A stretch of 64,000 nucleotides of DNA from Williamsia sp. DF01-3 (GTDB taxonomy: Bacteria > Actinomycetota > Actinomycetes > Mycobacteriales > Mycobacteriaceae): assembly GCF_023051145.1 (NCBI RefSeq), contig NZ_JALKFS010000005.1, positions 4,977,733 to 5,041,732 of the forward strand. The letters run 5' to 3'. The position numbers and the translations under genes are program-made. Each line of letters opens with the position of its first letter. Within the stretch, counting starts at the first letter, position 1. The notes under the pieces were generated by a model. That model was not told where the DNA came from, searched no databases, and worked only from the letters and a program-made list of their open reading frames with translations. Positions 33,299-62,308 of the stretch are shown here, in pieces.

Positions 33299-34267
33299 TC
33301 ACTTCTGCGGGAGCTTTTCCAACTGCGCTTCCAGGCTGTCCAGGCTGGCCATTCCGGATGCGTAGGTGAACGGATCCGTGTATGCCACAGCCAGAACCCG
33401 TCCGGCCTGTACTGCGGGCAGACTCTTGAAGAGCTCGGAGTCGAGCATCGCCTGCACCTCAGGTGTGGTGGTTCCGTCTGCGCGTGTCGGGTAGACGATC
33501 ACGTCGTAGTCGGCGAGCATTCCCAGCTGCTCATACGAACGTTCCTGTCCCTCGCCCGTGGGGAAGGTCAGACCCGCCGCCTCGAGCTTGTGTGGCACAT
33601 ACGTTCCGGCGTTCTGATCCCAGAAAGTGCCCGGTGACCACGACGCAACCGCGACGAACTTGGTGCCGTCGATCTTGTCGGCGTACTTCTGGTGGATCTC
33701 GTCGGCGCGTGCGTGGAACTGCTGCTTCTGCTCCTCGGCCTCGGTCTTCATGCCCGCGATGTCGGCCGCCTCGTCGAAGGTCTCGTACCAGTCGGTGACC
33801 AGCAATGACCCGCCCTCGAGGTTCACGACCGGCGCGATGGCCTTCAGCTTCTCCTTGTCGATTGCTTCCCAATGCTTTTCGAGAACATTGCCGACGATGA
33901 GGTCGGGCTCGAGCGCAAGAATCGCCTCATAGTCCGGTTGCGCGATGGTGCCGACCTTGGGCAGGCTCTGGTACTTCTCCCAAGCGGCCGTGTCGTTGCC
34001 GAAGTAGTCGGCCGTGTAGAGATCCGGTACGCCGACGACCTTGTCGCTACCGAGGCTGAGCAGCGCTTCTGCCGAGCCACGCAACGCCACGATGCGCTGA
34101 GGGTCGGTCGGGATCTCGACAGGACCGTCGACGGATTCCACCGTGCGGGTCTCGCCCGAGGCCGAATCTTTGTCGGAATCGTCCGAGCATCCGGTCAGCA
34201 GCACCACAAAAAGCAGTGGCAGCGCGGCCAACAACGACCACAGCCGCAGTCTTCGAGATTTCTTCAT
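33299..34267 (-). CDS. second siderophore-binding lipoprotein (FecB type)
   Basis: The 322-residue lipoprotein has a Lys/Arg-rich start, a hydrophobic core and the lipobox LLTGC (Cys27). The FecB-type pattern is clear: PTDPQRIVALRGSAEALLSLG, YEAILALEPDLIVGN and SLPAVQAGRVLAV. I chose ATG 34267 because a GGAG site lies 9 bases upstream; the longer frame to 34315 adds an unlikely extension. It follows the giant NRPS by 56 bases in the same direction, so it is the last gene of the biosynthetic operon. It is sequence-divergent from the lipoprotein at 16930, and may bind the same ferric siderophore or a different chelate. Confidence 0.9.
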   Translation of the reverse strand: MKKSRRLRLWSLLAALPLLFVVLLTGCSDDSDKDSASGETRTVESVDGPVEIPTDPQRIVALRGSAEALLSLGSDKVVGVPDLYTADYFGNDTAAWEKYQSLPKVGTIAQPDYEAILALEPDLIVGNVLEKHWEAIDKEKLKAIAPVVNLEGGSLLVTDWYETFDEAADIAGMKTEAEEQKQQFHARADEIHQKYADKIDGTKFVAVASWSPGTFWDQNAGTYVPHKLEAAGLTFPTGEGQERSYEQLGMLADYDVIVYPTRADGTTTPEVQAMLDSELFKSLPAVQAGRVLAVAYTDPFTYASGMASLDSLEAQLEKLPQK

Positions 34268-34323
34268 TGTCAGTTCTCCAATCTTGCTCCGGAGATGTTC
34301 CGGAGTGTTCATCAAAAGGTCTT

Positions 34324-40300: not shown

Positions 40301-43300
40301 CTGCGATAAGCACATCGGAGATGGATGGTTCGGCCGGGGTGACAAGCGATCGACACCGGGTAGTGCGTCGCGTCCTGCAGCGACACATCGTCCACCGAGA
40401 CCGAACCGTCCGGACCGATCTGCGACCACTGCGCGTCGGTGTCGATCCACTGGTGGTTCTGCATCACGAACAGCGTGTCGAACAGCTGGTCCACCCCCAC
40501 CGTGCTGTGCAGTTGCGACAGCTGCACATAGGGGTGTTCGATCGTCTCGAGCTGGCTGTGCTGCTGAGCGCGTAGGTGTTCACGGACCGTGTTTCCCGGC
40601 CGCACCGTGGTGCGCACCGGAACAGTGTTGAACAGCAGACCGATGATCTGGTCGGAGTCCTGCAGATCCGGGCTGCGGCCTGAGGCCACCGTGCCGAACA
40701 CCACGTCGTTCTGGCCCACGAGCTTGCTCAGCAGCACACCCCACGCTGTATAGAGCAGTGTCGCAACGGTGACGCCCGCATCAGCTGCCACGGCGCGTAT
40801 CGAAGCCGACAGCGTCTCGTCGAGATCCATCTCGTGGTCCCGCGCATGCGAGGCGCGGGCGGGCTCGGTGATCCCTGGACGGATCAAGGTCGGCGATTCG
40901 ATGCCGCCCAGTTCGCGGGCCCACACTGCGTAACCTGTTGAAGTGTCACGGGTCTGGAGCCATTGCAGATAGTCCCGGAACGACGGCTCTGCGGGGGTGA
41001 TCCTGTCGGGCACCACATCGACGGCGACGTCGATCTCGTTGTACAGCCTGAACAACGCCTCCAACATCAGGCCGCTCGACCAGCCGTCCATGAGCAGATG
41101 CTCGAAGACGACGGACAACGTCCACTTCTCGGAGTCGTTCTGCAACAGGGCGAACCGCATCAGAGGCGGAGCGTCCGCGGCAAACGGCCGACGACGTTCT
41201 TGCTGCAGGATCGAGTCGCGCCCGAGCCGGGCGGTATCTGCCTGCCGATACCACGTCCAGGGCACCTCCACCTTGGCCTGGACGACCTGGAAGGTGGATT
41301 CACCGTGCACATGGAATCCGGCCCGCAGGTTCGGGTAGCGGTACAGCAATGCCGTGACCGCGGCATGGAACCGGTCCGGATCGACTGCGCCGGCGAAGTC
41401 GATGACGAACTGTGACGAATAGACGTCCGTCGAGTCGGCAGCCTCCGCCGTCAGCAGGTGGAAGAGCAGACCCTCCTGGAGTGGACTGACCGGAAGGATC
41501 TCGGCGACCTGGCCGAACGTGGCCGACAGTTCTCCGGCGAGGTTCGCGCCGACCTCCACCAGTTGTGGGGCCGCGATCTGTTCGTACACAACACCGTCGA
41601 CCCACGGATCGGGTGAGGTCAGAAGGCCGGCCGCCGATCCGGTTGCGGCCAGGGCGGCGGCAACTCGTTCTGCCAGGCCCACCGCATCGACCGCCAACGT
41701 TGTCACGACGTCCACGGCCACGGCCACCCCGGAACTCTCCGTACCGGCCACGACCACATCGAGCACCAGCGGGTGGTCGCCCGGTGACGCGGTGATGTCC
41801 GGCGCCACAGGAGAACCCGCGTGATGGAGCCGTATTGCGATCTGCGCCTCGGGAAGGTCATCGAAGACGCCGGCGGTCGCAGGGCTGTGGTCGCGCAGAA
41901 TCACGTAGCCCTCGGCCTCGGCGGCGGTCATCGCCAGGGCGTCGCGGGTCTCGTCGGCGAGGCCACCTGTTTCCGAAGCCCACCTGACCAACACGGGGAA
42001 CGTCCGCCGCGCTCGCCCGATGATGTACTGCCGCATGTCTTCGCGCGACGGTTCTTCGATGTCGATGATGACACCATCGGAGACGAGGTCCGCAGGGGTC
42101 AGTACATCGATGGCGGTCAGGGCGCGCACCGTCGACGACACCACCGACGCACGCAGGTCTGCCAGGGCAACCGGTCCGGTTGCGGCATCAGCATTCACGA
42201 CACTGCGTCCGATGCGCCGATCTCGGCCCGCCACGGCCAGGGTGATCGGATCGGCGATGTCGACATCATCTGCGAAGGCCAGCCATCGGTCACTGTGGTC
42301 GTCGACGCGGTCGCCCGCGGCGTCACGCTCGGCTCCGATCAGGTCGGCCGCTGGCAGAGCGATCTGCAACCGATCCGCATCAGGGGCTTGCAGTACCGCA
42401 AACAGAAGGGTCTTGATCACGCCGACCGATTCGAGGTCGAAGCGGCCGTCACCGGGCACGCGGATCTCGAAATCGTCGACGTGCACGCCGTCGGAGGTCG
42501 AACACACGATCAGCGGCGTTGTCGCTGTCGGTAGCGATCCGTCCCGATCCATGGCGAGCGGCATCTGCACCACGCCGGTCCCGGTCAGGCCCCACCCGAG
42601 GACCCGTAACGCGGCCTCGCGTACGTCGGTAATGCTGAACCGGGAGGCGGGCAGGCGGACACTCTCAGAGAGAACAGCTTCCGCTGCTCGGTCACCGGTT
42701 GGCATCCCGCCGGATCGCGACCGCTCGGGTGCGATGTACTCCGAGCACAGTTGCTGCACTGTCGCCGTCGGCGACTGACTGCCGGCGATCAGCAGGAATG
42801 CGGTGGTCGCCATCAGGTTCTCGATGGTTGCGGGCTCGAACAGGGCCGATGCGTAGCTGAACCACAGAGTCCAGGCGCCGTCGTTGTCGATGATGGCAAC
42901 GGTGAGATCGAACTTCGCAACCGACTCGGAGCGCCCGGCATCGAGGACATCGATCGCGCGACTGAGATATCGGTGGGACTCATCAGGCGCCGCTGCGCGG
43001 TACGCGGTCAACACCTGAAAGACCGGCGATGTGCTCTCGGCACTCACGCGCAGACTGGGTGACGATGCCACGAACTCGAACGGCACGTCTCGGGCGTCGA
43101 GGGATTCGAGCAGGAGTCGACGCGATTCGGCGACGTTGTCGGAAAAGCTCGCGGATGGTTCGGTCGACACCGGCACCGGAACGGTGTTGAGGTAGTACCC
43201 GATCGACTGGTCGGCATCAGGCCCCTGGCGCAGGGTCGCCGGCGTGCCGAAGACGGACCTGTTCGCGGCGCCGTGCGATGCCAACGCCGCAGACAGTGCG

Positions 43301-46300
43301 GCGTTGAGGAGCATCAGCGGCGTGACACGACTCCGGGCGGCGAATTGTTGTACCTGTTCGACGAGTTTTTTCGGCACAACACATTCGGCTTCCGCCGCCG
43401 CCGATGCCGCAGGCCGGCCAGGGCCCGCGTGGTCGTAGGGCAGGTACGGGTACACCACGTGGTCCGCAAGCCGCGTCGTTATCCGTTCGAGGAGGGCGGA
43501 GCGCCCGCCCGGTGCCGAGTCGAGCACGGACCGTTCCTGGATCGCCCAGTCGGCGAACTGCCGCAGACGTCCCTGACCGTCGGCAAGCTGTTGTCGCGCA
43601 GGGCCATCGCCACTCTCAGCCCGCAGAGCGAGGTCGAGATCGGCCAGGAAGACGTCGAACGACGTCTCGTCGAACACGATGTGGTGCCCCGCCACCAGCA
43701 GCCACTGACGACCGGCACTGCGCAGGTGCACGAACTCGACAAGCCACTCCTCCGAGCCGTCACGTGGCCGCCCGAGGCGCTCACCGGCCGTGCGCGCAAC
43801 GTCAGCCTCCGCTACGTCGACGACGTCGTACGGAACACCGTCGGCGTCGCGTGCGTCACGAATGACCTGGACCAGATCTCCCGCACGCCAGTCGAAGTGA
43901 GTTCTCAGCGCTTCGTGGCGCCGCACAACCGACACCACCGCCCGTCGCAGGGTCTCTGCATCAAGACCCGGGTCGACCTGTAACGCATCACCGATGACGT
44001 ACTGGCTGCTCGGCCCGGTTGCCTGGCCGATCGCCCAGAGCGCCTGCTGGCCATATGAAGCCGGGATATTCGACGGCCGTTCGATCTTGCCTGGCTGCGG
44101 ATGCACGGCCGGTGCGGCGGTCTTCATCGCTGCGTCCACGGCGGCGCTGAGCTCGGCAATGGTCGGGTGATCGAACACCGACCGCAACGTCAGATCAGAT
44201 CCACACCGGTCGTTGAGCAGCGCGACCAAGCGTGTTGCCGTCAGCGAGTGCCCACCGAGGGCGAAGAAGTCGTCGCCGGCGGCCATCACGACGTCGTCGT
44301 CCACCCCGAGAACCCCGGCGACCGTTGTCGCGACCACACGTTCTGTATCGGTTTCCAGCTCGCGTCCCCGGCCGCTCGAGACACCCACGTCCACGGCAGG
44401 AAGGGACCTGCGGTCCACCTTGCCGTTGGCAGTCGTCGGTAGCACGTCCAGACGCATGAAGACCGACGGGACCATGTGTGCCGGTAACTTGGCGCCGACC
44501 CACTCGCGTAGTTGTTCCGCGAACAGGTCGTCGGACAGATGTGCACCATCGCCGAGTGCGGTCACGTACCCCGCCAAAGTCACTCCGGCGACCGGATGTT
44601 CGACCGGCACCACTGCGGCGGATCCGACCCAGTGGTGGCCGCCCACCACCGCGGCAACCTCACCGGGTTCCACCCGCTGGCCCCGAATCTTCACCTGATC
44701 GTCGACGCGTCCCAGATACTCCAGAAGGCCATCGGCATTCCATCGGGCCAGATCGCCCGTCCGGTACATGCGACCACCAGACCCCCGTGGGTCGGCGACA
44801 AAGCTCCCGGCCGTCAACCCGGGGCGGCGGTGGTAACCGCGCGCCAATTGCACGCCCGACACGTACAGTTCGCCGACGACACCTGCCGGTACTCTCCGCA
44901 ACCACGAATCCAGCACCACGGCAGTGGTGTTGGTGAGCGGACGCCCGATCGGAAGGGTCCCGTCCGAGTAGTCGGCGCCGGGGTCGAACTGGCCGAGTAC
45001 GACCTCGATCGTCGCTTCGGCCGGTCCGTAGATGTTCCATGCCCGCACACCGAATCTCGTGTGGAGGTCACGGGCAAGCGACACCGGCACCGCTTCGCCA
45101 CCCAGCGACAGAACATTGGGCGCCAGCTCCGTCAGGGTGCCCTGCCGCAGCACCTCCTCCATGAGCGACGGGGTGAAGTCGATCCAGGCGAAGTGATTGT
45201 TGTTCAACAGCTCAGCGATGTACGCCGGGGCGGCGAACTGGGTGTCATCCAGATAGTGCACAACACCACCGAAGGCCAGCGGCCAGAACAACTCTGCCGC
45301 CGCCGGATCGAAACCGATTGCGGTTCTCGCCATCACGACATCACCGGGAGCCAGTTCGCAGAGTTCCTGGCGACGACGGATCAGCTCACCAAACGCCCGG
45401 TGCGTGATGTCGACCCCTTTGGGTCGCCCGGTGGTGCCCGAGGTGTACACCACATAGACCGAGTCGTCGGCATGCAATCGACGCGAGCGTTCGTCATCGC
45501 CGACGGGCGACGGATCCATGATGTCGATCCGCGACGCCACCGCTGGATCAGCCAGATCAAATGTGTTGGTGTGGCCGTACATCGAGCCACCGTCGTCGGG
45601 ACCAGCGGTGATCAACACCGCAGCGCCACTGTCTTCGATCAGGAACCGGATTCGTTCGAGTGGGTAGGCGGGGTCGATGGGAACAAACGCGGCGCCGGCA
45701 CGCACCACCGCGGCCAGTGCAAGGGGCAGCGCCGGGCGCCGGTGGATCAGGACCGCAACACGGTCCCCGACCTCGACCCCGGATCGGATCAGGTGGCGGG
45801 CCAGCCGGTTGACACGCTGATCGAACTGCACCGAGGTGTAGGTCTGTCCTCCGAAGACCAGCGCAGGTTCCGACGGACGCTCACTGGCGGCGGCCTGGAG
45901 CATGGCGTCCACGGTCGGGTGCTCGGCAGCCATCAGGACCTCGCTGCGTCCGGCATCCTGCAGCGGCACGGGGCCGAACTCGACAGCGCTCAGCGGCTTG
46001 TCCGGAGCGTGGACCATCACGTCGAGGACGGCGGTGAACACGTCCACGAAACGGTCGATGGAGGCCGGTGTGTACAGCTCGGCGGCGTACGAGACACCAG
46101 TCGTCAGAACACCGTTCACCACTTGGAACTCGAGTTCGAGGTCGGCCTTGACGGTCTTCAGGACACCGCCGACCCTCTCGAAATGCGACAGGCCGGCGGG
46201 CTGGAGGGTGTCGTCTCTGATCTGTTCGTGCTCGGTCACGAAGTTCAGCAGCACCTGACACAGCGGGTTCGCTCCCGGAACCCGGCCGACGCGTGATGCC

Positions 46301-49300
46301 GCCACAACCCTGTCGAAGGGGATCAACTGGTGGTCGACAGCTCCGAGCACTGTTTCCCGGGTGGCGCTCAAGAACTCTCGCGGCGTCCACATCGGTTGCA
46401 GGCGGTGCCGGACGGCCACGGTGTTGATGAGGTAGCCGACCGTGGACATGACTGCCGCGTCCGGACGTCCCGCGGTCGGCGAGCTGAGCACCATGTCCGA
46501 ATCGGCCCCCAGCCTGTGCAAGGTCAGAGCGACCGCGGCGTGGACGACCACGAACATCGAGGCACCGGTGTCGGCAGAGAGTTGTTGCAGGGCAGCGGTT
46601 GTCGCCTCGTCGATGACAAGTCCGGTGTGGCCGCCTTGGAAGGTGGGTGTTGCCGGTCGCGGCCGATCGGGTGGAAGGGTGGACAACTCGGGCGCCCCAG
46701 CCAGGGTATCGGCCCAGTACTGAGTGCCTCGCTCGAAGGCAACGGTGTCGACGAGCTGCTGCTGCCACACTGCGAAGTCCGCATACTGCAACACAACCGG
46801 CGGCAGAGCCGGTTCCCGATTCTCTCTCAGGGCGCCGTACGCTGCCCAGAGCTCGCTCGCGACCGTGGACATCGACCACTCGTCGACAAACGCATGATGT
46901 ATCGCAACCGCGAGGATGTAGCCGCCATTGTCACGCGGTGCGACGAGCGAGCGGATCGGCATGTCCGTATCGAGGGCGATCGGACTCTGCACCCAGTTCT
47001 CCACCGTGTCCCAGTCGGCACTGTCATCGGACCCGTCCAGGTGCAGATGGTCGGTGGTCAACCACCGGCCCACGGAGTCTGCGGGTTCCACGATCTGGAC
47101 AAGACCGTGTTCCCCGGCCTCCACCAACCGGGTCCTCAGCGCCTCGTGGCGGCGGACGACCACTTCGAGGGCTCGTTCCCAGGTCGCCTGGTCGAAATGC
47201 CCCTCCACGTACCACTTCACCGGCACGACGTACCGGCCGCTCGCTTCCGAGAGGCCTTCGATGGCCCAGAGCGCCTGCTGGCCCGAGGAAGCCGGTATGT
47301 GCGCCGGACGGTTCACGGCCACGAGCCGAGGCAATGCCGAAGCATCACCGGGGCCACCCGCCGCATCCACCGCCCCGGCCAGGCCGGCGACGGTGGGGTG
47401 ATCGAACACCGAGCGCAACGTCAATCCCCGGTCGCATCGCGCGTTGAGCAACGCGATCAGTCGGGTCGCCAGCAGCGAGTGCCCGCCCAGGACGAAGAAG
47501 TCGTCCTCGGCCGACAACTGGACTTCCCCGAGCCCGAGGACGTCGGCCACCAGCCTGGCAACGGTGTGTTCGGTTTCCGTCGACAGTGGACGGCCACGTC
47601 CACCGCCTGCCCCCAGATCGATTGCCGGCAGCGCACTTCGATCAAGCTTCCCGTTCACGGTCACCGGCAGCTCATCGAGCCGGACAAACGCCGAGGGCAC
47701 CATGTGGGCGGGCAGTCGCGACGCTGTCCACTCGCGCAGTTCGTCGTCGAACCCGTCGGTCACCGACGCGGCAGCGTGGTCGTCGGACGTCCCGGTGCCG
47801 GCTTCTGTGTAGTAGGCGGCGAGTACCGTCCCCGACACCGGGTGTTCGACCGCCACCACGGCCGCGGACGAGATGCGTGGGTGCGAGCCGAGTACCGCAG
47901 CGACCTCACCGGGTTCCACACGCTGGCCCCGGATCTTCACCTGGTCGTCGGCACGGCCCGAGTACTCCAGGACACCGGTGGCGGTCCACCGGACGAGATC
48001 GCCTGTCCGATAGATCCTCTCGCCCGAGCCGGCGGGGTCGGCGACAAACCGGGATGCCGTCAGACCGGATTGCCCACGATAGCCGCGAGCCACCTGGACA
48101 CCCGACACGTACAATTCACCGACGACACCGATGGATGTCGGTCGCAACATCGGATCAAGCACCAGCACAGACGAATTGGCCACGGGAAGGCCGATGGGCA
48201 CCGAACCTTGCCCGTTCGGCGACAACAAATGAGTGGTCACGTCACCGGCGACCTCGGTGGAGCCGTAGAAGTTCGTCACCGCCGCATCCGGCCACGCGGA
48301 CGTGAGCTGCTCGACTGTCGGGACATCGAGTCGCTCCCCCGACACCGTCACTCGGCGCAAGCTGTCCGGTGACGCGCCGGACGCCGCCATGTTGCGCGCC
48401 AGGGACGGAACCATCAAGACATCGGTGACACCCGCCCGTGCGCACAGCTTCGACAGTTGTGCGGGGTCTTTCGCCTCGTCTGCGGTCGCGACGATCAGCC
48501 GGCCTCCGACCACAACGATGTGCAGCATCTCGGTGAGTGCGTCGATGAACCCGAGACCGGATTTGGCAACGCCGACCACGTCGTCGCTGTCGCCGATGAG
48601 GTGGGCGCCCCAGGACAGGCGGTTCACCAGGGAGCGGTGCGACACCTCCACGCCCTTGGGTGCACCCGTGGTACCCGAGGTGTAGATCACGTACACCAGG
48701 TCACCGGCCAGCAACGGCCGGTTACGTTCCGACTCCCTGATCGGTTCGCTGGACACCGCAGCGATCGTGTTGAGGGTCAACTCATCCCGGAGGTTCACGA
48801 GTCGCCCGTCGCCGAACAGATCGTCCTCGACACCCGGGAAGTCGGGGCCCAGGGAGCCGGGTCCCGCCGTGCTCAGGATGGCGGTGGGTGTGCACTCGGC
48901 CAGGATGTGGTCCCGGCGTCGCTGGGGATGCTCGGGATCCACCGGGACGTAGACCGCACCCGCGCGGATGATGGCCGCAACGCAGATGGGTAGCCATTCA
49001 TCGCGACCACCGATCAGGGCCACTCGGTCACCGACCTGGACACCGGAGACGAGCATGTACCGGGCCAACCGGTTCACCTGCGCGTCGAACTGCGCGTAGG
49101 TCATCTCCAGAGCCCGGTGGACCACCGCGGTCCGATCGGGATGGGACTGTGCAGACGCGGCCAGCAGCGAATCGACCGTCGTGTCCGGCAGTACCTGCAA
49201 CGCGGGTCCTGCCGAGACCTGCTTGATCACCGAAGCTTCCGAGGCACCCACGGTGTTCAGTCGCGCGATCTGTGTGTCTGTCCCCGCTCCGAATGCCTCG

Positions 49301-51516
49301 AGAACGCGGGTGAAGCTGCCCAGGATTCTGCGGGCAGAATCTGCGTCCACGCCGGCCGGGTGGTAGGACAACTCGACCGCCAATTCGGCGGCGGGAACGA
49401 CGCGCAGCGTGAGCGGATAGTTCGTCGAATCGCGCCACTGCCGTAGCTCAAGAGAGAGTCCGGTTGCGCGTTGCAGGTCACCCAGCACGGTGTCGTCGCT
49501 GACGTAGTTCTCCATCACCACGAGCGTGTCGAACAATGCCGGCATCGCGCTGAGACGGTGGATGTCGGTGAGCGAGACCTGATGACCCTCGAGCACCGCC
49601 ACGTTGAAGGCATGCACGGCGTCGAGCACTGCATGGATTGTCATGTCGGGTGACACGGTCACGACCGTGGGAACGGTGTTGACGAACATTCCGATGGCGG
49701 TGTCGATGCCGTCGACGTCCACGGACCGCCCGGAGACCACAGACCCGAAGACCGTTGTCGCCAAGCGGGTATGGATCTGTAGCGTCAGCGCCCACGCAGC
49801 CTGGACGACGGTGTTCAGTGTGATCGATCTGCGCTTGGCAAGGTTCGCGAGTTCGGCGGTCACGGGCGCGGAGAGAACCGTCTCGGCAGTGTCGGGGAAA
49901 GACGTCTCGTCCGGTTGCCAGCCACCGGCCACCAGGGTCGGCTCGGTGACCGCGGACAGCGGACCCTGCCAGACGTCGATGGCGTGCTGCGCGTCCGACT
50001 CCGCCATCCGGTGCACGAAACGGAAGAACGTGTCGTCCATCTGCGAGGCAACGGCTTCGGGCGCTTTATAGGCCCGCAGCAGCTCCTGGACGAGCAGCGG
50101 AGTTGACCAGCCGTCGAGTACCGCGTGGTGCGATGTGAGGACCAGAACACCCGCTGCGTCGACGGTGAGCAGCAGCGTCAGACGAATGGGTGAGCCATGC
50201 TCAACATCGAAGCCCCGTGCCCGGTCGTCCTCGATGAACGTGGCGGCATCGTGTTCCGGATCCACACTCGCCCGCAGATCGATCACCGTCAACGGTTCAT
50301 CCACAGCCACCGGGATGACGGCGACGGGGGTGCCGTCGTGCGCGGTCCGCACAGCCATCGCCAGCTGCGGATACTTCGTCAACACCGCTCGCCATGCGGC
50401 GTGGAGCCTGTCCGGCTGTACCGCGCCGGCAACGTCGCGAACGTGTTGCGCCGTATACAGATCGACGCCGCCGGACGCATTGAGGGCTGAGTGGAAGAGG
50501 ACACCGCGCTGGGCCGGCGTCAGTGGGTGCACCCCGAGAAGTTCCCCGTGATCGCGCTCCCACGTCGCGATGTCGTCCGTCGACACGTCGACCAGGGGAA
50601 AGTCGCTGGGCGAGTGTGCCACAACCGCTTGCGGTGAGGTGGCGTACTCCGCGAGAGCCGCCAGCGCCGCCGTCCATCGGTCGGCAAGTGCACGCACTGC
50701 GGCTTCGTCGATGACCGACTCGACGTAGGCGAAATCTGCGTGCAGCTCGACTCCGGAATCGGAGACGACTGCCCTGGCGGTGATGTCGACGACCGCCGGG
50801 GCCGGCATCTCGTCGGCCGCATTCAGACCCAATCCCGCTGTCTCCGGGGCGGATTGCCATGGCAATTCGCTGTTGACGCCACCAACACCGGCACCTCGGA
50901 ACTGGCCGAGGTAGTTGAACGCGATCTGCGGGTGGTCCAGGGCGATGAGACCAGTCGCCGGTCCTGTGGCGAGGTGGCGAAGAACTCCGTAACCGATGCC
51001 CTTGTCGGGTATCGAGGAAAGCGTCTCTTTCACGGTCAGGACTGCATCCAGCGCGCGCTTCCCGTGCAACCCATCGGCTTCGGATCGCCCGAACTCGCTG
51101 CGAGGCAGCGGAAGCCGCACCGGGTACCACGATGTGAACCAGCCGACTGTCGTCGACAGATCCGCGCCGTCGACGACTCCCTCTTCGCGGCCGTGACCTT
51201 CCAGCCCGATGACCATCCCGTCGTGCGACAACTCATCACGATCGGAGAACACCTGGGACAGCGCCGCGGACAGCGCGCCGAGCAAGACGTCGTCGACGGT
51301 TCCCGCAGCGATCCGCGGGACGTCGGTCAGAACAGCGGACGCGGTGAGCGCGGGAATCATCACACTCACGCGCCGCACATGCGCACAGGTGTCACGTTGC
51401 GGATCAAGACGCCGGTGCCCGAGAACGCCCTCGGTCTGCCCCGCCATCGCCAGCCACAGCGGTCTCTGATGATCGGAGCGCCTGCGGCGGCCCGGCTTGT
51501 CAGCGCTTGAGCCCAC
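34324..51516 (-). CDS. giant NRPS, C-terminal part: (E)-C-A-T-C-A-T-C-E*-C-A-T-C-A-T-TE
   Basis: The 5730-residue frame starts in the middle of an epimerization domain and is almost certainly the continuation of the gene at 55286 after a frameshift. Domains by approximate residue: rest of E 1-310 (NYLGQF), C1 with HHAVLDGW at 464, A1 810-1300, T1 Ser 1346, C2 with HHAFVDEW at 1542, A2 1880-2390, T2 2424, C3 with HHIVFDET at 2615, decayed E* 2930-3335, C4 with EHLLMDGW at 3475, A3 3800-4300, T3 4340, C5 with HHAFVDEG at 4540, A4 4880-5390, T4 5418, thioesterase 5460-5730 with GWSYG and a late KGHRE His. Hand-read pockets: A1 IDTLTSFGDK (beta-Ala-like), A2 DPADSGIIEK (unknown), A3 DAEDSGLINK (near the DMENLGLINK hydroxyornithine code), A4 DVPNLAIEVK (unknown). 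The thioesterase releases or cyclises the product. Confidence 0.93.
41500..42720 (-). other. decayed epimerization domain inside the giant NRPS, with no A or T domain before it
   Basis: Between condensation domains C3 and C4 lie about 400 residues that are neither A nor T. The stretch [16 protein letters not shown]...LPEAQIAI follows the E-domain pattern in which GYGLLR...TA...LPxPQIxFNYLG is normal, and FPVLVRW precedes it as in E domains. The catalytic HHxxxDG has become a CSTSDG-like segment, and NYLG is lost. The domain should be inactive. Its position directly after a C domain implies that an A-T pair was lost or is supplied in trans. Confidence 0.65.
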
Positions 51517-54500
51517 GCCACCAGCCCGGTGCCTGCGGTGGGCAGGCCGACATCAGGCGAGCGCACATCGGAGGACGACGCGGCAGCCAGGTCGTCGGCG
51601 AGAATCCGCCAGGAGACCCCGTCCACGACGAGGTGATGGATCACCATGACGAGGCGCCCTGTGGCGCTCGCCGAATCGGTGATCCACCGCGCTCGCCACA
51701 CGACGCCTGCCGCCGGATCCAGCGCGCCCGCGAGGTCGGTCGCGACTTCTCTCAGGTGCTGCTGCCACTTCTCGGTGCTCCACCGATTGAACTGTCCATC
51801 AATGCGCTCGTCACGATCGAGCCTGTCTACCGCATTCGCGCCGACGGCGCCGACCTCGAGTTGGCGTGCTTCTCCCGATCCGACGACCCGCGCGCGCAAT
51901 GCCCCGTGTCGTCCGACCACTCGGTCGAGCGCGTCGCGGAGCCGCTCCCACGTCAGATCTTCGGGAGTCACGAACACAAATGTCTGTGCGAAAGAATCGA
52001 ATCCGGGCGCATCGATCAGTCGATGGGCGATCGGCATCAACGGAGCGAGGCCGCCGTGGCCGCCTCTCGCCGCCTGGTCCCGTCCGAAGATCTCACGGCC
52101 ATCAACCGCAGGAACAGCCGAGGCCGCGATCGCCGCAACCGTGCGTTGCTCGAACACCATCTTGGCTGTGGTCACCAGTCCTGCGCGCCTGGCCCGCGAC
52201 ACCACCCGGATGGAGACGATGCTGTCGCCACCGAGGGCAAAGAAGTCATCGTCGGCCGACAGCTGGGCCGCCGGATCAAGGCCGAGTACGTCGAGGAAGA
52301 CCGCCGCGATGATGTGCTCTGCGGCAGTGCTGAGTTCGCGCCCCTGGCCGCTGCGCGCGCCGAGATCTATTGCGGGAAGCGCTCGGCAATCGAGTTTGCC
52401 GTTCGCGGTCATCGGCAATGCGTCCACCCGGACGAACACCGACGGCACCATGTGGGCGGGCAGCGTGCTCTCGGCCCAGACGCGCAGTGCGGCATCAAGT
52501 GGCTGTCCTTCGGAGTCGGACTCGACCGCCGCGCAATAGTAGGCAGCAAGAACTGTTCCTGCTGCGGCATGTGGGTTCGCGGCGCCACTCGATTCGGCAC
52601 CCCGATCGACGGCGACGACAGCAGCTGCCGTCACATCCGGATGCGATTGCACGGCGGCGGCGACCTCACCCGGTTCGATACGGAATCCGCGGATCTCGAC
52701 CTGTTCGTCGATGCGGCCCAGATACTCCAGCTCGCCCGCGACGTTCCACCTCGCAAGATCACCGGTGCGGTACATACGGGTTCCGGACCCGTTCGGGTCG
52801 GCGACGAATCTTGTTGCGGTCAGCGACGGACGACCGCGGTATCCGAGACCGACCTGCGGTCCGGCCACATACAGTTCTCCGACGACGCCGATCGGTGTCG
52901 TCTGCAGATGAGGGGTGAGGACATCGGTACGGAGGCCGGGCAGCGCCCGCCCGATGACCGACGCTCCTGCGACATCGCCGTGCGACGACACCACGGTGTG
53001 CGTGACGTGCACCGTGGTCTCGGTGATCCCGTACATGTTGATCAACGTCGGCGTGGTCGGGTGACGATCCAGCCACGGCGCGAGCCTGGCCGCATTCAAT
53101 GCCTCGCCGCCGAACACGACCGTTCGCAGTGCGAGGTCTGAGCCGTCCGTCCGGTGCTGTTCGGTGTCGATCAACGCATAGAACGCTGACGGTGTCTGAT
53201 TGAGGACGGTGACCCGATGCCTCCGGATCGCATCTCCGATGAGGACCGGATCGCGCAGGACATCCTGGCCGACCACAACAAGCGCAGCCCCGGTGGTCAG
53301 GGGCACCCACTGTTCCCAGACGGAGAAGTCGAAGGCGTACGAGTGCAGCAAGATCCATACGTCGTCGGCGCGGAAGTCGAAGTGTGTGGTGGCGTCGAAC
53401 AATGCGATGACATTGGCGTGAGTGACCATGACGCCCTTCGGACGACCGGTCGTGCCCGAGGTGTAGATCAGATACGCCGCATCTCCGGGGAGCAGTCTGC
53501 GTGTGCGGTCGGCGTCGCCGACCGGTTCCGGCGACACGGTGTCGAGGTCCCGCACCACCGAAGGGTCTGCGACGTCGATGATCGGCGTCCCCACGACTCC
53601 GGCGAACCGCCCGATGTCGAGAGCATCTCCACAGTTGGTCAGCACTGCACTCGGTGCGGCGTCCTGCAGCAGGAATTCGATCCGGTCGTCTGGATAATCC
53701 GGGTCCACCGGAACGTACACAGCGCCCGCGCGCATGACTGCCGCGAGCATGACAGGCAGCCACTCGTCACGCGCGGCCATCACCGCGATGCGGTCGCCGG
53801 TGCGCACACCCGATGAAAGAAGGTGCCGGGCAATGCGGTTCACCCGTGAATCGAACTGTGCATACGTGAGGTGCCGATCGTCGACGGCCACCGCGACCCG
53901 TCCCGGATGCTCCCTGGCTGCAGTCTGCAACAGCTCGTCGATCGTCACCTCGCGACTGACCTCGGGTTGCCCCGACACCCACTCCGACAACAGGTCGGTG
54001 TCGACCGGGTCGGCAGGAGCCAGCGCGCGCAGACGATCGTCGGCCGACAGCGACGACAGCCTGCGGACTGCGCTCTCGATCCGTCGCAGATGCACCCGCA
54101 GTTCTGATTCGTCGTATCGGGTGGGGTCGGCCTTGAGTTCGAGCGCGAACCCCTTCACCTTGTCGTTGTAGACGAACAGATTGAGGTCGTCGGCCGGTCC
54201 GGTGCCGAGTTCCTCGGTGACCGCGACCGTTCCCGCGAAATCGGCGTGGTAGTCGAACACATGTAGATTGATCTGCGAGAGAGCAGGTTTGACGCCGTCG
54301 GACACCTGGGCGAGGCGCTCACCCCGGTAACGCTGATGGCGGCGCACGCCGCCGAGTGCGGCCGCCGCACGGGTGATCCACTCGCCCACGTTGCCGTGTG
54401 GATCGATCTCCAGCGACACGGGCAGAACATTCACCTGCATCATCGGGGTACGCAGGCCCACCCCGCGCCGAGCCATCATCGGGATTCCGATGGTCGCCTT

Positions 54501-55286
54501 GGTACCGCCCGACCGATGCGAGTCGTACCAGGCCCAGAGGGCGATCATCGCCTCACCCCAGGTGGCGCCGACCGATCGAGCCAGTTGGTCGACCCTGTCG
54601 ATGACCTCCCGGTCGATCGACACGGACACACCGATGGGCATGTTCTCGCTCGGCGACGCCGGCACCAGCGACGCTGCGGAGTCTGCCAGCGCTTCGGCGA
54701 AGGCACTCCAGTACTCACCATCACGCTCGGCGACATCGCTGCGCCCGTATTCGTCCTCGGCCGTGATCATCTCGGCCACGGTGCCGAACGTCGACTCCGG
54801 TACGGCCGCGCCCCGCGACAGCGCGGTGTACACCTGTGCCACCCGACGGGTCATCAACGACAGCCCATACGCGTCGAGCAATATGTGGTGCGCCTTGAAC
54901 TCCCAGACGATCTGCCCATCGTCGAGCGACCACACTGTGGCGGCGAACAAGGGACCTTCAGCGAGGGGTAGCGCCTCGGCCATCCGCGTGCGCGCTTGTG
55001 CCCGAAGTGAATCGGCGGTGCCCACGTGGTTGCGCACCTCGATCGACGGCGGGGTAGCCGGCACCTGGATCGACTGCAGCGGCCCCTGCGGCCCGGTGTC
55101 GAAACGGCACCACAGGACGTCGGCGTCGTGAACGGCGATGCCCACTGCGCGAGCCAGGACTTCGCTATCGCACCCCGCGGGCAGCCACAGGAGCTGCCCG
55201 ATCGAGAACACCGGCGACCGAGGCGCCAATTCCTGAGCGAACCACACGCCCCATTGCGCACCCGAGAGCCTCATGCCACGTCCCAT
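51366..55286 (-). CDS. giant NRPS, N-terminal part: EntF-like C - A(Thr) - T - E (5' piece)
   Basis: The 1306-residue frame starts with a C domain that strongly resembles the N-terminal domain of EntF. Shared features are [53 protein letters not shown] and TRYDES. EntF-type C domains accept an aryl group from an aryl carrier protein. The A domain (about 460-970) has [14 protein letters not shown], and its hand-read pocket is DFWNVGMVHK, the Thr code of coelichelin synthetase. A carrier (GGDSIVSI, Ser near 1021) and an E domain with intact [10 protein letters not shown] follow, so D-allo-Thr is likely. The E domain is cut by the frameshift near 51470. The start is ATG 55286; TTG 55292 and ATG 55274 are alternatives. 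It lies 54 bases after PanD. Confidence 0.92.
51440..51500 (-). other. apparent one-base frameshift within the epimerization domain
   Basis: The upstream frame is domain-like up to about SRAAAGAP, then turns into Arg/Gly-rich nonsense ending at 51366. The downstream frame becomes E-domain-like from [15 protein letters not shown]. Joining the two needs a shift of minus one in the reading, i.e. one missing base. No slippery heptamer is visible. It may be a sequencing error, a real inactivating mutation, or less likely a functional split. Confidence 0.8.
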
Positions 55287-55339
55287 CGCCAAACCACATT
55301 CCCTTGCGCTCGCCGATGCGAGACGGTCGTCGATCGTGT

Positions 55340-55747
55340 CTAACGGCTCGACAGCTGATCGGTCGCGCCCGGAACCGGTTGCGCCGGATCATTTCCCAGC
55401 GCCACGATCGCGTTGTCCGAGTCGACGTGGACGACCTTGGGTTCGTGCACGATGACCTCGGCCTCGTCGAGTTGCAGGAACGACATGATGATCACCAGGT
55501 CACCCGGGTTCACCAGATGAGCCGCTGCCCCGTTGATGCAGATGACCCCTGAACCGGCGGCGCCGGTGATCACGTAGGTCTCCAGTCTCGCGCCGTTCGT
55601 GACGTCGACGACCTGAACCTTTTCGCCTTCCACGAGATCGGCGGCCTTCATCAACGTCTCGTCGACCGTGATGGAGCCGACGTAATGCAGGTCGGCCTGA
55701 GTGACTGTGGCGCGGTGGATCTTACCGTTCACCAGAGTGCGGAGCAT
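55340..55747 (-). CDS. panD: aspartate 1-decarboxylase (PanD), siderophore-dedicated copy
   Basis: The 135-residue protein matches PanD from its start: [22 protein letters not shown], with Gly24-Ser25 as the self-cleavage site that creates the pyruvoyl cofactor. Downstream it has [25 protein letters not shown] and GDLVIIMSF. The enzyme makes beta-alanine from aspartate, normally for pantothenate. Here no panB or panC is nearby; it lies between the MbtH-like gene and the NRPS (gaps of 36 and about 50 bases). That location, and two NRPS A domains with beta-alanine-like pockets, suggest a copy devoted to the siderophore. Confidence 0.95.
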
Positions 55748-55783: not shown

Positions 55784-56059
55784 TCAGGGAGAAACGCTGT
55801 GGCGTGCCCGCGAATCCGTGGCATCCGAATTCGTGGCGTCCGCGTCCATGGCGTCACGCAGGCTCTTCGGCCGTATGTCCGTCCAATGCTCGTCGACGTA
55901 GTCGAGGCACTCCTGCCGGCCGGCGTGACCGTTCGCTCCGTGGACGATCCGCCAGCCCTGCGGTACCTCCGCGAACGTCGGCCACAGGGAGTACTGTTCT
56001 TCATCGTTCACGAGCACATAGAACGTGCCCTCGTCATCATCAAAGGGGTTGGTAGACAA
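55784..56059 (-). CDS. mbtH: MbtH-like NRPS accessory protein
   Basis: The 91-residue protein has the whole MbtH signature: [47 protein letters not shown]. MbtH-like proteins bind A domains and are needed for the solubility and activity of many actinobacterial NRPSs. A C-terminal tail of about 20 residues rich in Asp, Ala and Ser exceeds the usual length. The start is a TTG at 56059 with GAAGG 5 bases upstream. It overlaps the end of the ornithine hydroxylase gene by 20 bases, showing tight coupling. Confidence 0.95.
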
Positions 56060-57383
56060 AGTCGCCTTCTCTCTGCTCGCTCGATTCAGAAGTGATGTGG
56101 ACGGTGGCCTCCGCCTCGGTTCGCCTGACCGAGGCGACGATCGAGTCCACCAGCTCCCCCGAACGCACTGCCAGGTTCGACAGCAGGGTCGACGTGAGGC
56201 CGTGGGTGTGCTCGGTGTTGCCTTGCAGGTAGATCCCGCCCTTGATGCGCCCGCTGGTGGTCACCCGGTATTGACGGTCGACGACGGGGCGACCCTTGTC
56301 GTCCACATCGCAGGCCGCTGCCAGCGGGCCGAGCAGCTCGGCGAGACTGACCGGTTCGAAACCCGTCGCGAAGATGACTGCGTCGCAGCTGAACTCGTCG
56401 ACGCCCTGCGACGGTCGATGGCGGATCTGCACGGCGACTCCGTCATCCGTCTCGACCAGCGAGCTGACCTCCGACGCACCACGTACGAACAACCTCCGGC
56501 GCCCCGACACCCGCTCCCCGTACTCGCGGCGGTACAGCTCCTCGATCAACGGTGGATCCACTGCCGAATAGTTGGTTCCACGGTGATAGCTGAGCAGTTG
56601 CGCGCGGAGTTCGTCGGACGACTGATGGAAGTCGACAACAGCGTCCGGATCGAAGATCCGGTTGGCGTAGGGACTGTCGTCGGCAGGTGTGTACCCGTAT
56701 TTGCCGAAGACCGCGTGGATCTCGGATTCCGGATACGTCTCGTGGAGATAGGCGGCCACCTCTGCAGCACTCTGTCCGGCACCCACCACGATCAGTCTCT
56801 GGTGGCGCATGCGCGGCAGTTCCCGGAGGTGCTCGAGCAAGCGGTGGTTGTGGAACACACGCGCGCTCTGCGTGACACCCGCGGGCACCTTGGAACGCAG
56901 GCCGCCGGCGAGAACCACGTTGTGCCCGCGCACCGGAACCGAACCCGGCACCTGGACCTCGAACACGTCGCCGGTCCAGTTCACCGAGCTGACCTCCGTC
57001 CCGTAGGCGATGGGCAGCGACACCTTGGCGGCCGCCCACTCGAGGTAGTCGTGGAACTCGAGCCGGGTGGGAAAGAAGCTCTGCTGGTTGATGAAGTCCG
57101 TCAGCCTGCCACGCTCGGACAGGTACTTCAGGAATGAGTAGGGACTACAGACATCCCGTTGGGTGGCAAGGTCTTTGAGGAACGAGATCTGCATCGTGGT
57201 ACCGGGGATCAACATGCCCCGGTGCCAGCCGAACCGCTGCTGTTTCTCCACGAACTTCGCCGTCAGGCAATCTGCCGGACGGGCCCGGTCGTTGTACTCC
57301 TCGATCGCGATCGCCAGCGCGAGGTTCGCCGGCCCGAAGCCGACGCCCACCACATCGAACGGAGCACTCTCATCGGTGGTCAT
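56040..57383 (-). CDS. L-ornithine N5-monooxygenase (PvdA/SidA family)
   Basis: The 447-residue flavoenzyme has the FAD loop [15 protein letters not shown] near the N-terminus, the [21 protein letters not shown] block typical of ornithine/lysine hydroxylases, an NADPH loop [15 protein letters not shown] and the late FATGFEP motif. TxxEHTHGL near the end (NTEHTHGL) is also conserved. It hydroxylates the side-chain amine of ornithine (lysine cannot be excluded by sequence alone) to start a hydroxamate. The formyltransferase and the hydroxyornithine-type NRPS pockets support ornithine. Start is ATG 57383, with GGAGGAG 8 bases upstream. First gene of the main operon, behind the best iron box in the window. 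Confidence 0.94.
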
Positions 57384-57497: not shown

Positions 57498-59123
57498 TCA
57501 GCGTGCGCGTTGGTGGCGTTTGCTGACCTTGCCCACCGCGGTTCGTTCGAACTCGTCGACCAGTTCCACGACGTCCGGGATCTTGTACGCGGCAAGACCT
57601 TTGTCGGTGAGGAATCTCCTGATGGCCGGGAGCGACAGCGTCGACCTGTCACTTCCCTCCCGGGGGATGACAAACGCTTTGGTGCGCTCCCCCAGCAGCT
57701 CGTCGGGCACTCCGACCACCGACACATCGTGAACAGATTCCGATGTCAGGAGGACGTTTTCGACCTCCTCGGGTGCGATCTTCTCTCCGCCCCGGTTGAT
57801 CTGGTCCTTGGACCGCCCCACCACCGTGAGGTAGCCGCGCTCGTCCGCGCGGACTATGTCGCCCGTTCGATAGAACCCGTCGGCGGTGAAGTTGGCGGCG
57901 TTGTGCTCGGGCGCGCGGTAGTAACCGCGGATGGTCGACGGTCCGCGCGTCAGCAGATGGCCGGAGGTGCCCAGGGGCACCTCATGTCCCTCATCGTCCA
58001 CCACCAGCACCTCATCGGCCTCCAGCGTCGGGCGGCCTTGCCGGGTGGTGATCGTCTCTTCGTCCTCATCGAGCCCGGTGAATGTGGTGAGCCCTTCGGC
58101 CATCCCGAAGCTCTGCTGCACGGTCGCACCGAGCTCCGAACGCACCCGGCGTGCGGCCTCCGCACTGAACTTGGCCCCACCCACCCGTAGGACCTTCAGA
58201 GTGCGCAGGTCATACCGGTGTTTGAGCGACGAATTGAGCCACACGAGCGCGAGCGGTGGGACCACCGACACGTCGGTCACCCCGTGTTGCTCGATCAGAG
58301 GGAACGTGACGTCGGGACTTCCGTTCGGGGCGGGCACCACGGTGCCGCCCTTGTAGAGCACTCCGAGAAACCCCGGCGAACGCATCGCAAAGCTGTGGCA
58401 CATCGGCAGGACCACCAGTTGGACGGTGCCATCGGTGATCCCGCCGATGTCTGCACTGGCCCGGACGGAAGCCAGGTAGTCCTCGTGGGTATGGGGAATC
58501 ACCTTGGGCTGACCGGTGGTACCGCCCGACAACTGCAAGAAGGCGACGTCCGACGGCAGGGATCTGCGTCGGTGTGTCGACAGGCCGCGTGAGAGCAATT
58601 GATCCGCATCGTCACCCGCGCCATCCTCTGACAAGACAACGGTGTGGAGCCGGCCCGCCGACGACTGTCTCAGCTCCCTCGCCAGTGACCCGAAATCGTT
58701 GCCGGCGTGGGAGTCGACGGTGACATAGGCGACCGCCTCGGTGAACCCCACGAAGTACTCGATCTCATGCCTGCGCAGCGCGGCAAGCGCAAGGACGGGA
58801 ACCGCCCCCAGCTCGAACAGCGAGAACAGGATCGGCAGGTAGTCGGGCACGTTCGGCAGGTGCACCACCACACGGTCGCCACGACCGACACCGAGAGCTT
58901 CGAAACCCGCCGCGAACGCCAGCGTCCGCTCCCCGAGCGCGCGATAGGTCATCCGGGTGTCTCCGGCGATGATCGCGATCTGATCGGGCGACCGTTCGAT
59001 CGTCTCGAACAACATCTCGGACAGCGTCTGGTCGGTCCAGTAACCCTCGTCGCGGTACCGGGCGGCAAAGTCGGCAGGATATGGGACAACCCCGTCTAGT
59101 TCCAACGGTCGCAGCCCGCTCAC
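57498..59123 (-). CDS. aryl-AMP ligase (EntE/DhbE/AsbC-like), probably for 3,4-dihydroxybenzoate
   Basis: The 541-residue stand-alone adenylating enzyme resembles EntE. It has WTDQTL near the start, QLSGGTTGQPKVIPHTH (A3), a substrate helix CHSFAMRSPG, GGAKFS, SFGMAEGL (A5), YYRAPEHN, FYRTGDIV and SKDQINRGGEKIAPEE. In 2-hydroxylated aryl substrates the residue after His is usually Asn (HNY in EntE-like enzymes); here it is Ser (HSF). That fits a substrate without a 2-hydroxyl, such as 3,4-dihydroxybenzoate. The GTG start at 59123 overlaps the stop of the AsbF-like gene (GTGA). It would load the aryl carrier protein two genes upstream. Confidence 0.88.
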   Translation of the reverse strand: MSGLRPLELDGVVPYPADFAARYRDEGYWTDQTLSEMLFETIERSPDQIAIIAGDTRMTYRALGERTLAFAAGFEALGVGRGDRVVVHLPNVPDYLPILFSLFELGAVPVLALAALRRHEIEYFVGFTEAVAYVTVDSHAGNDFGSLARELRQSSAGRLHTVVLSEDGAGDDADQLLSRGLSTHRRRSLPSDVAFLQLSGGTTGQPKVIPHTHEDYLASVRASADIGGITDGTVQLVVLPMCHSFAMRSPGFLGVLYKGGTVVPAPNGSPDVTFPLIEQHGVTDVSVVPPLALVWLNSSLKHRYDLRTLKVLRVGGAKFSAEAARRVRSELGATVQQSFGMAEGLTTFTGLDEDEETITTRQGRPTLEADEVLVVDDEGHEVPLGTSGHLLTRGPSTIRGYYRAPEHNAANFTADGFYRTGDIVRADERGYLTVVGRSKDQINRGGEKIAPEEVENVLLTSESVHDVSVVGVPDELLGERTKAFVIPREGSDRSTLSLPAIRRFLTDKGLAAYKIPDVVELVDEFERTAVGKVSKRHQRAR

Positions 59124-60004
59124 AGCGAACCCACCTGCGCCGAAAGGCGTTGCACGCCAGCGTCTGTCCACGTGGAGGACGGGGTGTTCGCCTTTGTCCC
59201 CAGCTCATCGATGAACTCGCCGAGCGCCTTCGCGCCGGCCCTGGCCAGCTCGTGCGTATCGCGTTCGCGATAGCCAGGATTGAAGATCTCGAGCGAGACA
59301 GGCCCGTCATACCCCGATGACAGGACGGTGCCGATCGGGGCGAGGAGATCCATCTGCCCCTCGCCGGGAAAACAGCGATGTCCACGGCTCCAATGCATGA
59401 GGTCCATGGAAAGCAGAGGCGCATCGGCCAGTTGGAGAAATCCCACCGAGCCGGCTGGGAGTTCGGACAAGATGGTGATGTCCTCGCCCCGAGCGATCAG
59501 GTGAAACGTGTCGACCACCAGGGTCAGGTTCGGATGGTCGGCGCGCTGCAGCACTTCCCACGCATCTGCGACCCGGCTGATGTGGGTACCCCACGCCAGA
59601 GCTTCGAACATCACCGTCACGCCGTGCTCGGCGGCCACGTCGCCCAGCGCCGACAGCTGCGCCACCGACAGGTCACGACTGCTGTCGGCGTCATCATCGG
59701 TGTTGGAGACCACGAGTATGGAGTCGGCACCGATCTCCCGCATCACCTCCAGCTCGCGTCGAAAACGAGCTTGCACAGCACCGAATTCGTCGTGCGACAC
59801 GCCTTCGGCTCGCCGGAACGGCTGATACAGGTCGATGGTCAATCCGAGGTCCGCACAGCGGCGAGCACATTCGCCCGGGGACATCGTCGACTCTCGAAGG
59901 TCGGCATCCAGCAGCTCGATACCGTCGAACCCGGCGGCGGCAATCGCATCGATCTTCTCCTCCAGGCCGCCACCGAGAGACACCGTTGCCATGCACATCT
60001 TCAT
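59120..60004 (-). CDS. 3-dehydroshikimate dehydratase (AsbF-like)
   Basis: The 294-residue TIM-barrel protein is of the xylose-isomerase-like/AsbF group. AsbF turns 3-dehydroshikimate into 3,4-dihydroxybenzoate for petrobactin. Matching blocks are GFDGIELLDADL, IDLYQPFRR, MFEALAWGTHI, VVDTFHLIARG, LQLADAP...MHWSRGHRCFPGEG and GPVSLEIFNPGYR. These contain the expected metal ligands (Glu, Asp, His, Glu). It is coupled at both ends, by ATGA to the carrier protein gene and GTGA to the ligase. Neighbours and motif together make catechol supply the likely role; other sugar-isomerase-fold activities are less likely. Confidence 0.87.
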   Translation of the reverse strand: MKMCMATVSLGGGLEEKIDAIAAAGFDGIELLDADLRESTMSPGECARRCADLGLTIDLYQPFRRAEGVSHDEFGAVQARFRRELEVMREIGADSILVVSNTDDDADSSRDLSVAQLSALGDVAAEHGVTVMFEALAWGTHISRVADAWEVLQRADHPNLTLVVDTFHLIARGEDITILSELPAGSVGFLQLADAPLLSMDLMHWSRGHRCFPGEGQMDLLAPIGTVLSSGYDGPVSLEIFNPGYRERDTHELARAGAKALGEFIDELGTKANTPSSTWTDAGVQRLSAQVGSL

Positions 60005-60493: not shown

Positions 60494-62308
60494 TCAGCTC
60501 TGCGCGCGGCCCCGAGACCAAGCCCTCCAGAGGTTGCCGTAACGGCCTCCGAGCGAGACGAGTTCGGCGTGTGTACCCACTTCGACGATCCGTCCGCGTT
60601 CCATGAAGACGATGCGGTCGGCGCGAGCCGCCTGGCTCAGGCGATGCGCCACAATGAGTGCCGAGCGTCCACGCAGGGCCGCTTCCGCCGAGGCCTCGAG
60701 GACACCCGCACCTGCGCTGCCGGCGTCGGCGGTCGCCTCGTCGAGTATCGCCATCTCGGGGTCGAGCAGAACGATCCGGGCCAGGGCGAGTTGTTGCGAC
60801 TGCATCGGTGTGAGGTGGTGCCCTTGCTCGCCGACAACCGTCTCGATGCCATCGGGCAGCGCACGTACCCACGGACCTGCATCGACGAGATCCAGCGCGG
60901 CCCAGAGCTGATCATCGTCGGCCTCCGGCGCGGCGATTCGAAGGTCCGAGGCCAGCGTTCCGCTGAAGACGTGCACCTCCTGGGTGACCAGCGCTGTCGA
61001 ACGCGCCAGTTCGGTGCGGTCGATGGACGTGATGTCCCTGCCACCCAACAGCACACGTCCCTCGGACGGCATGTGGATACCGGCGACGATGGTGGCCAGT
61101 GTTGTCTTCCCGGCGCCCGATGATCCCACCACGGCGATGTGTTCTCCCGCCGCGATCGACAGCGAGATGTCGTGCAGCACCTCGTGCTCCGGCGAATACG
61201 AATAGCTGACGTTGCGGATCTCGACCAGTGGCGCCCCCGGCGCAGGCCGGGCCGGCTTGGTGTCGACGGCCGTCGTGGTGGTCGCCGCGCGGTCCGCCTC
61301 CTCGATCACGCCCACGATGCGACCGAGAGCGGCTGCGCCGGACTGCAGGTCGTTCACCAGCAACATGACCCGTCCGATCGGGTCGAACAACAACAGGAAA
61401 TAGAGCATGGCTGCGGTCACTGCGCCGACGGTGAGCGAGTCCGACCCGACCAGCACGAACCCGATGATCAAAATGGTTGTCATGCCGACGAACTCGCCCA
61501 GGTTGATGCGGGCGCCGAGTCGGTTCTGCAGCACGATCGCACGCATGAACCAGCGGACCACCGACCAGGAATGACGCTCGATCCGGCCGTTCAGCGACTG
61601 CGACAACTCGAATGCGTGCACGGTGTCCAACCCGCGGATCGAGCCGAGTACGTGATGGGCCCGCTCGGCGGTGGCAGCCCGTTCCGCGGCAAACATCGCG
61701 GGTGCCTTCTTCAGGAACATCCGCACACCGTTCACATAGACCGGCATGACCACCACGAGAACCAACAGGAAACGCCAATCCAGCAGCGCCAAGCCGACAA
61801 ACGTCACGGCGATGGTGAAAGTGGCTGCGAGAAGGGCGGGTACCACCGATCCGATGGCCTGGCTCACGGTGCTGACATCGTCGGTGGCCCTCGACACCAG
61901 GTCACCACTGCCGGCGGCCTCCACGCGCGCAAGCGGCAGCCGCAGCGAGGCGGCCAGCATGGTCTCTCGCAGATGCGCCAGAATCGTCTCGAAGATCTTC
62001 GCGGACAATCGGACTCCGAGTCCGGCGAGCACCGCGGCACCCACCGCCGAAGCGGCCATGACCCCGGCCAGGCGCCATATCTCGCCGGTGGCGCCACCTT
62101 CGTCGGCGATGTCGACGATCTCCCCGAGGGCTCTCGGCGTGACGAGCCCCAGTGCTGCTGCAGCCGTCATGATTCCGGCGAGCAGCACGAGGGGCCAGAT
62201 CTGTTTACGCACCTCGACGCCCAGGTAGCCCATCGTGGTGCGAAAGTTCGCAATCGCGAGTTTCTCCGTCGAGACCTCTGGTGTGGCATCCCCGGTCTTG
62301 GCGCTCAT
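60494..62308 (-). CDS. ABC half-transporter (type IV exporter fold), subunit with intact Walker A
   Basis: The 604-residue protein has six transmembrane helices (about residues 30-320) and an ATPase domain (about 360-600). Walker A is GSSGAGKTT and Walker B ILDEATAD with the catalytic Glu; the H-loop VAHRLS is normal. The signature LSGGQ is replaced by LTPMQ. The gene overlaps the partner by 4 bases (ATGA). In such heterodimers one of the two ATP sites is degenerate. Beside siderophore genes it may export the new siderophore or, as with IrtAB, import the loaded one; direction cannot be told from sequence. Confidence 0.85.
   Translation of the reverse strand: MSAKTGDATPEVSTEKLAIANFRTTMGYLGVEVRKQIWPLVLLAGIMTAAAALGLVTPRALGEIVDIADEGGATGEIWRLAGVMAASAVGAAVLAGLGVRLSAKIFETILAHLRETMLAASLRLPLARVEAAGSGDLVSRATDDVSTVSQAIGSVVPALLAATFTIAVTFVGLALLDWRFLLVLVVVMPVYVNGVRMFLKKAPAMFAAERAATAERAHHVLGSIRGLDTVHAFELSQSLNGRIERHSWSVVRWFMRAIVLQNRLGARINLGEFVGMTTILIIGFVLVGSDSLTVGAVTAAMLYFLLLFDPIGRVMLLVNDLQSGAAALGRIVGVIEEADRAATTTTAVDTKPARPAPGAPLVEIRNVSYSYSPEHEVLHDISLSIAAGEHIAVVGSSGAGKTTLATIVAGIHMPSEGRVLLGGRDITSIDRTELARSTALVTQEVHVFSGTLASDLRIAAPEADDDQLWAALDLVDAGPWVRALPDGIETVVGEQGHHLTPMQSQQLALARIVLLDPEMAILDEATADAGSAGAGVLEASAEAALRGRSALIVAHRLSQAARADRIVFMERGRIVEVGTHAELVSLGGRYGNLWRAWSRGRAQS

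Follow-up and report, generated by a model that had tools for sequence, protein, structure and literature searches.

The locus raises a simple question: has Williamsia sp. DF01-3 lost a giant NRPS to a frameshift in an epimerization (E) domain, or does the frameshift exist only in the assembled sequence? In the window, by which we mean the whole analysed stretch of 64,000 nucleotides, two minus-strand frames overlap by exactly 151 bases (51366-51516), as the earlier note had reported. The upstream frame (51366-55292; 1308 aa) encodes a C-A-PCP unit and the N-terminal half of the E domain, and the downstream frame (34324-51516; 5730 aa) encodes the C-terminal half of that domain and the remaining NRPS modules. 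Separate Pfam Condensation matches cover the two halves on the minus strand: one at 51582-51995 (window coordinates converted from those of the genome), with HHLVVDG at residue 1219 of the 1308-aa frame (base 51638), and one at 50626-51303, with NYLG at residue 201 of the 5730-aa frame (base 50916). The reported separation of an HHxxxDG half from an NYLG half is therefore borne out by the open reading frames (ORFs), by Pfam and by the positions of the motifs. The frame switch lies at about 51470-51480 (minus strand), where DF01-3 has, on balance, one base fewer than each of the five relatives aligned to it, in agreement with the proposal of one missing base; the alignment also shows that the base run at the break is short and that a substitution adjoins it. 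Judged by sequence, both halves are clear pieces of a single E domain, unbroken in five of five relatives, and more than a chance resemblance.

The relatives were drawn from a DNA search over nine genomes of the genus, DF01-3 among them, which gave full-length matches at 95-96% identity in G003, G004 and G006, and near full-length matches at 66-67% identity in G008 and G005. By protein scan of contigs, the named strains with the locus are Williamsia muralis NBRC 105860, W. muralis BULT 1.1, W. sp. 1138, W. soli C17 and a record labelled Kitasatospora arboriphila NRRL B-24581. This last record (NZ_JNYV01000011.1) contains the Williamsia cluster (94-95% identity) and was placed in the Williamsia genus group; from its sequence, it is a mislabelled or contaminated strain.

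In each of the five Williamsia relatives with the locus, one continuous frame crosses the break site (3621-3694 codons stay open within the 13 kb compared), and the break is private to DF01-3. The G003 ortholog is a single ORF of 20,958 bp that aligns to window positions 34312-55292, confirming the suggested extent of one gene from 55286 to 34324, and the G004 ortholog is a single ORF of 21,084 bp. The earlier note had asked for this alignment and had named confirmatory high-quality reads together with relatives split at the same point as the observation that would count against a broken single gene; since all five keep one gene, that objection falls away. The same alignment bears on whether both frames could be used as they stand, joined by programmed frameshifting or translated as two subunits divided within the E domain. 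A candidate GTG start for the downstream frame at 51516 is compatible with such an arrangement, but the resulting subunit would begin with about 25 out-of-frame residues, ahead of any E-domain match, followed by half a domain, and because five of five relatives have one frame, there is nothing conserved that needs recoding. The single frame in relatives rules out both versions of this proposal, to which we assign a negligible probability.

The neighbourhood indicates what the synthetase probably makes. The A domain in the same module as the split E domain (52839-53927, minus strand) has the Thr-like motifs FDFSVWE, LNQTPS and FGGEAL, and the positions that we take to be the specificity-determining ones read DFWNVGMVH, presumably close to the Thr code. 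The earlier assignment of a Thr module is thus plausible, and given these motifs, the split E domain would yield D-configured Thr; a PDB search confirmed an NRPS A domain and nothing beyond that. Upstream, all on the minus strand, lie genes for an aspartate 1-decarboxylase (PanD; 55340-55747), an MbtH-like protein (55784-56059), an L-ornithine/L-lysine N-monooxygenase for hydroxamate supply (56040-57383), a stand-alone AMP ligase (57498-59171) and an ABC half transporter (60494-62308), with a second half transporter at 62305-63972. On the other side, again on the minus strand, are a periplasmic binding protein (33299-34315), the second NRPS of the cluster (26225-32452; 2075 aa, A-PCP-C-A-PCP), which is unbroken, and a siderophore-interacting protein fused to an O-methyltransferase-like domain in one ORF (24358-26196). 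The same fused ORF is present in G003, and G004 aligns to it without a frame change. A FecCD permease is also among the neighbours, and the periplasmic binding proteins number two.

An NRPS, an ornithine N-monooxygenase, an MbtH-like protein and iron-siderophore uptake genes, the combination that marks a hydroxamate siderophore NRPS cluster, thus occur together, and from these neighbouring genes the broken synthetase is probably the core enzyme of such a cluster. That the PanD gene is flanked by those for the MbtH-like protein and the NRPS suggests a dedicated supply of beta-alanine, which, by analogy with kribbellichelin and the madurastatins, is a likely building block. Overall, the locus is plausible as a siderophore cluster and looks functional. 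A literature search, judged on its listings, found no Williamsia siderophore or NRPS study treating this cluster.

A synthetase disabled for long should have left traces in its evolution. Its dN/dS is 0.188 on the DF01-3 branch as against 0.163 and 0.193 on those of the two relatives, and on the DF01-3 branch it is 0.134 before the break and 0.197 after it, both from small counts. Other ORFs have values of 0.076, 0.076 and 0.078 in DF01-3 and the two relatives; the synthetase protein thus evolves faster than the other compared ORFs, and does so alike in all three genomes. Relaxed selection on the DF01-3 branch was not found by dN/dS across three genomes, a result that a very recent loss would leave unchanged. 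Alignment to G003 showed no second lesion in the synthetase, and no frame change other than this break occurs in DF01-3 across the 29 ORFs of G003 that align to the window. A long-dead pseudogene is ruled out by the dN/dS of the synthetase.

The window lies on a 5.25-Mb contig of a 5.59-Mb genome in six contigs, and the frequency of comparable breaks was determined in two 400-kb stretches of that contig (C5:4090001-4490000 and 4760001-5160000) and in the regions of G003 and G004 syntenic with them. ORFs were picked mechanically in one relative, not taken from annotation, and were kept only if in both other genomes their alignments covered >90% of the length at >85% identity; the count then took in indels present in just one of the three aligned genomes. 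This left 237 of 267 and 228 of 245 ORFs in the two samples with G003 as reference, and 239 of 257 and 230 of 240 with G004. Among the 465 conserved ORFs of the G003 comparison, interior private frame-changing indels numbered 42 in DF01-3, 3 in G003 and 4 in G004, and with G004 as reference they numbered 34, 0 and 0; a slightly different interior rule gave 5 rather than 4 for G004 with reference G003, and 1 rather than 0 for G003 with reference G004. The 42 indels fall in 37 of the 465 ORFs (about 8%). Relative to the share of private substitutions, which are of the same order in all three genomes (10,841 in DF01-3, 8,089 in G003 and 13,533 in G004, reference G003), the excess has p of about 5e-14 and 8e-17 with the two references.

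The interior filter matters for G004. Without it, the two samples gave 26 + 31 events in DF01-3, 3 + 3 in G003 and 4 + 17 in G004 with reference G003, and 23 + 25, 0 + 3 and 8 + 15, respectively, with reference G004, many of the unfiltered G004 events lying <200 bases from a predicted start. A first count of ORFs with a net frame change (29 in DF01-3 versus 10 in G003, reference G004; 28 versus 6 in G004, reference G003) took in events near mechanically chosen start codons and is superseded by the interior counts.

The excess is confined to one kind of event. Single-base deletions make up 38 of the 42 frame-changing indels of DF01-3; 13 of the 38 are in runs of at least 4 bases, which constitute 2.8% of coding bases, and 23 are in runs of no more than two bases. 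Private indels that keep the frame are distributed about evenly, with 17 in DF01-3, 16 in G003 and 23 in G004. Inflation limited to the frame-changing, nearly all single-base class points to indel errors, not to evolution under selection. The interior density is ~1 per 11 kb; extrapolated from the 800 kb sampled, this would come to roughly 500 such breaks if the whole genome is alike.

The identity of the broken genes bears on whether the deletions exist in the cell. An NCBIfam search covered 30 of the 37 hit ORFs (four crossed piece borders and three were omitted), and those scoring above a family cut-off included DnaJ, a SigJ-type sigma factor, GlgX, type III pantothenate kinase, lysine-tRNA ligase, RsgA, an ammonium transporter and ribosomal protein L6. 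For the split lysine-tRNA ligase, an intact second copy exists elsewhere in the genome. The L6 gene, rplF (C5:4222335-4222858), is single-copy, and its product is encoded in two frames, one for residues 1-129 and the other for 129-175; a split between frames also affects type III pantothenate kinase. Since losing L6 should be lethal, the living strain must lack at least some of the breaks.

The same findings dispose of the idea that the strain is a natural indel mutator whose deletions are real. The deletions are certainly many, and they are spread across both 400-kb samples, but in-frame indels are not raised along with them, other ORFs have a dN/dS matching that in both relatives, and a living cell should not survive with its only L6 gene broken. 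The even numbers of in-frame indels and the broken rplF rule this candidate out, and its probability is close to nil. Another giant NRPS elsewhere on the contig (C5, about 4284000-4318000), which in G003 is a single 33,873-bp ORF, has lost one base at three places in DF01-3 alone, and there its C domains lie over several frames; three breaks in a 33.9-kb ORF are as expected if long targets gather errors by length.

Taken together, the break in the synthetase is very probably a single-base indel introduced in sequencing or assembly, a reading supported by the unbroken gene of the relatives and by an essential ribosomal gene broken in the same manner. Such an indel would have been left uncorrected in an assembly probably made from long reads, a platform that we infer from contiguity and the error spectrum. 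In the living strain, the gene would then most likely be a single frame, open over about 6,990 codons, with its first module (C-A-PCP-E, Thr-like) intact. That this particular site belongs to the errors is something that we infer from the class as a whole: when the counts of the relatives are scaled by private substitutions, ~3.5 of the 42 events are expected to be real, an upper value, so the prior for any single event being real is about 8% or less. Two considerations count against the error reading. The run at the break is short and a substitution adjoins it, so that this is not a textbook long-homopolymer error of the kind represented by the 13 of 38 deletions in runs of at least 4, although the 23 deletions in runs of one or two bases show that short runs are common in the class. 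In addition, NRPS genes can be dispensable, and thus may hold more real breaks than average genes.

The alternative is a genuine recent frameshift in this strain, in which case the synthetase would end inside its first E domain, the siderophore would be abolished and the cell would rely on other iron chelators, its own or those of neighbours. In its favour, the sequence shows the break plainly and none of the relatives has it, some settings allow a siderophore synthetase to be dispensed with, and a very recent event is the one kind that dN/dS would not mark. Set against this are the rarity of such events in relatives (3 and 4 versus 42), the normal dN/dS of the synthetase together with its freedom from a second lesion, and the same type of break in an indispensable gene of this assembly; a real frameshift is therefore improbable. 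If it were real, the strain would have just lost a siderophore synthetase of roughly 6,990 residues. Between the truncating mutation and the assembly error that the earlier note had offered side by side, the private excess of single-base deletions and the split rplF point strongly to the error.

An error in the assembly makes the break an ordinary artefact, a caution for annotation rather than a biological finding. Genes called from this assembly are unreliable, very long ones such as NRPS genes being likely targets; without reads, no count of pseudogenes, of truncated synthetases or of split biosynthetic genes taken from it is credible.

Both the cluster and the break have counterparts in known systems. 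Kribbellichelin (PMC9962454) and madurastatin (PMC10951976) are described as hydroxamate siderophores made by NRPSs and containing N-hydroxy-ornithine and beta-alanine, and the account of the kribbellichelin cluster also includes an aspartate 1-decarboxylase gene. With these described systems the present cluster has NRPSs in common, accompanied here by an ornithine N-monooxygenase gene; it differs in its larger module set, which appears to begin with a Thr-like C-A-PCP-E module. For the break, the counterpart lies in the gene-fragmenting indel errors of long-read assemblies, which the reports on Kastor (PMC12007338) and Homopolish (PMC8011154) place mostly in homopolymers. Although the run at this break is short and a long-read platform is only probable, DF01-3 shares with the errors so described the predominance of single-base indels, mostly deletions, their enrichment in homopolymers and the splitting of many genes, conserved ones included.
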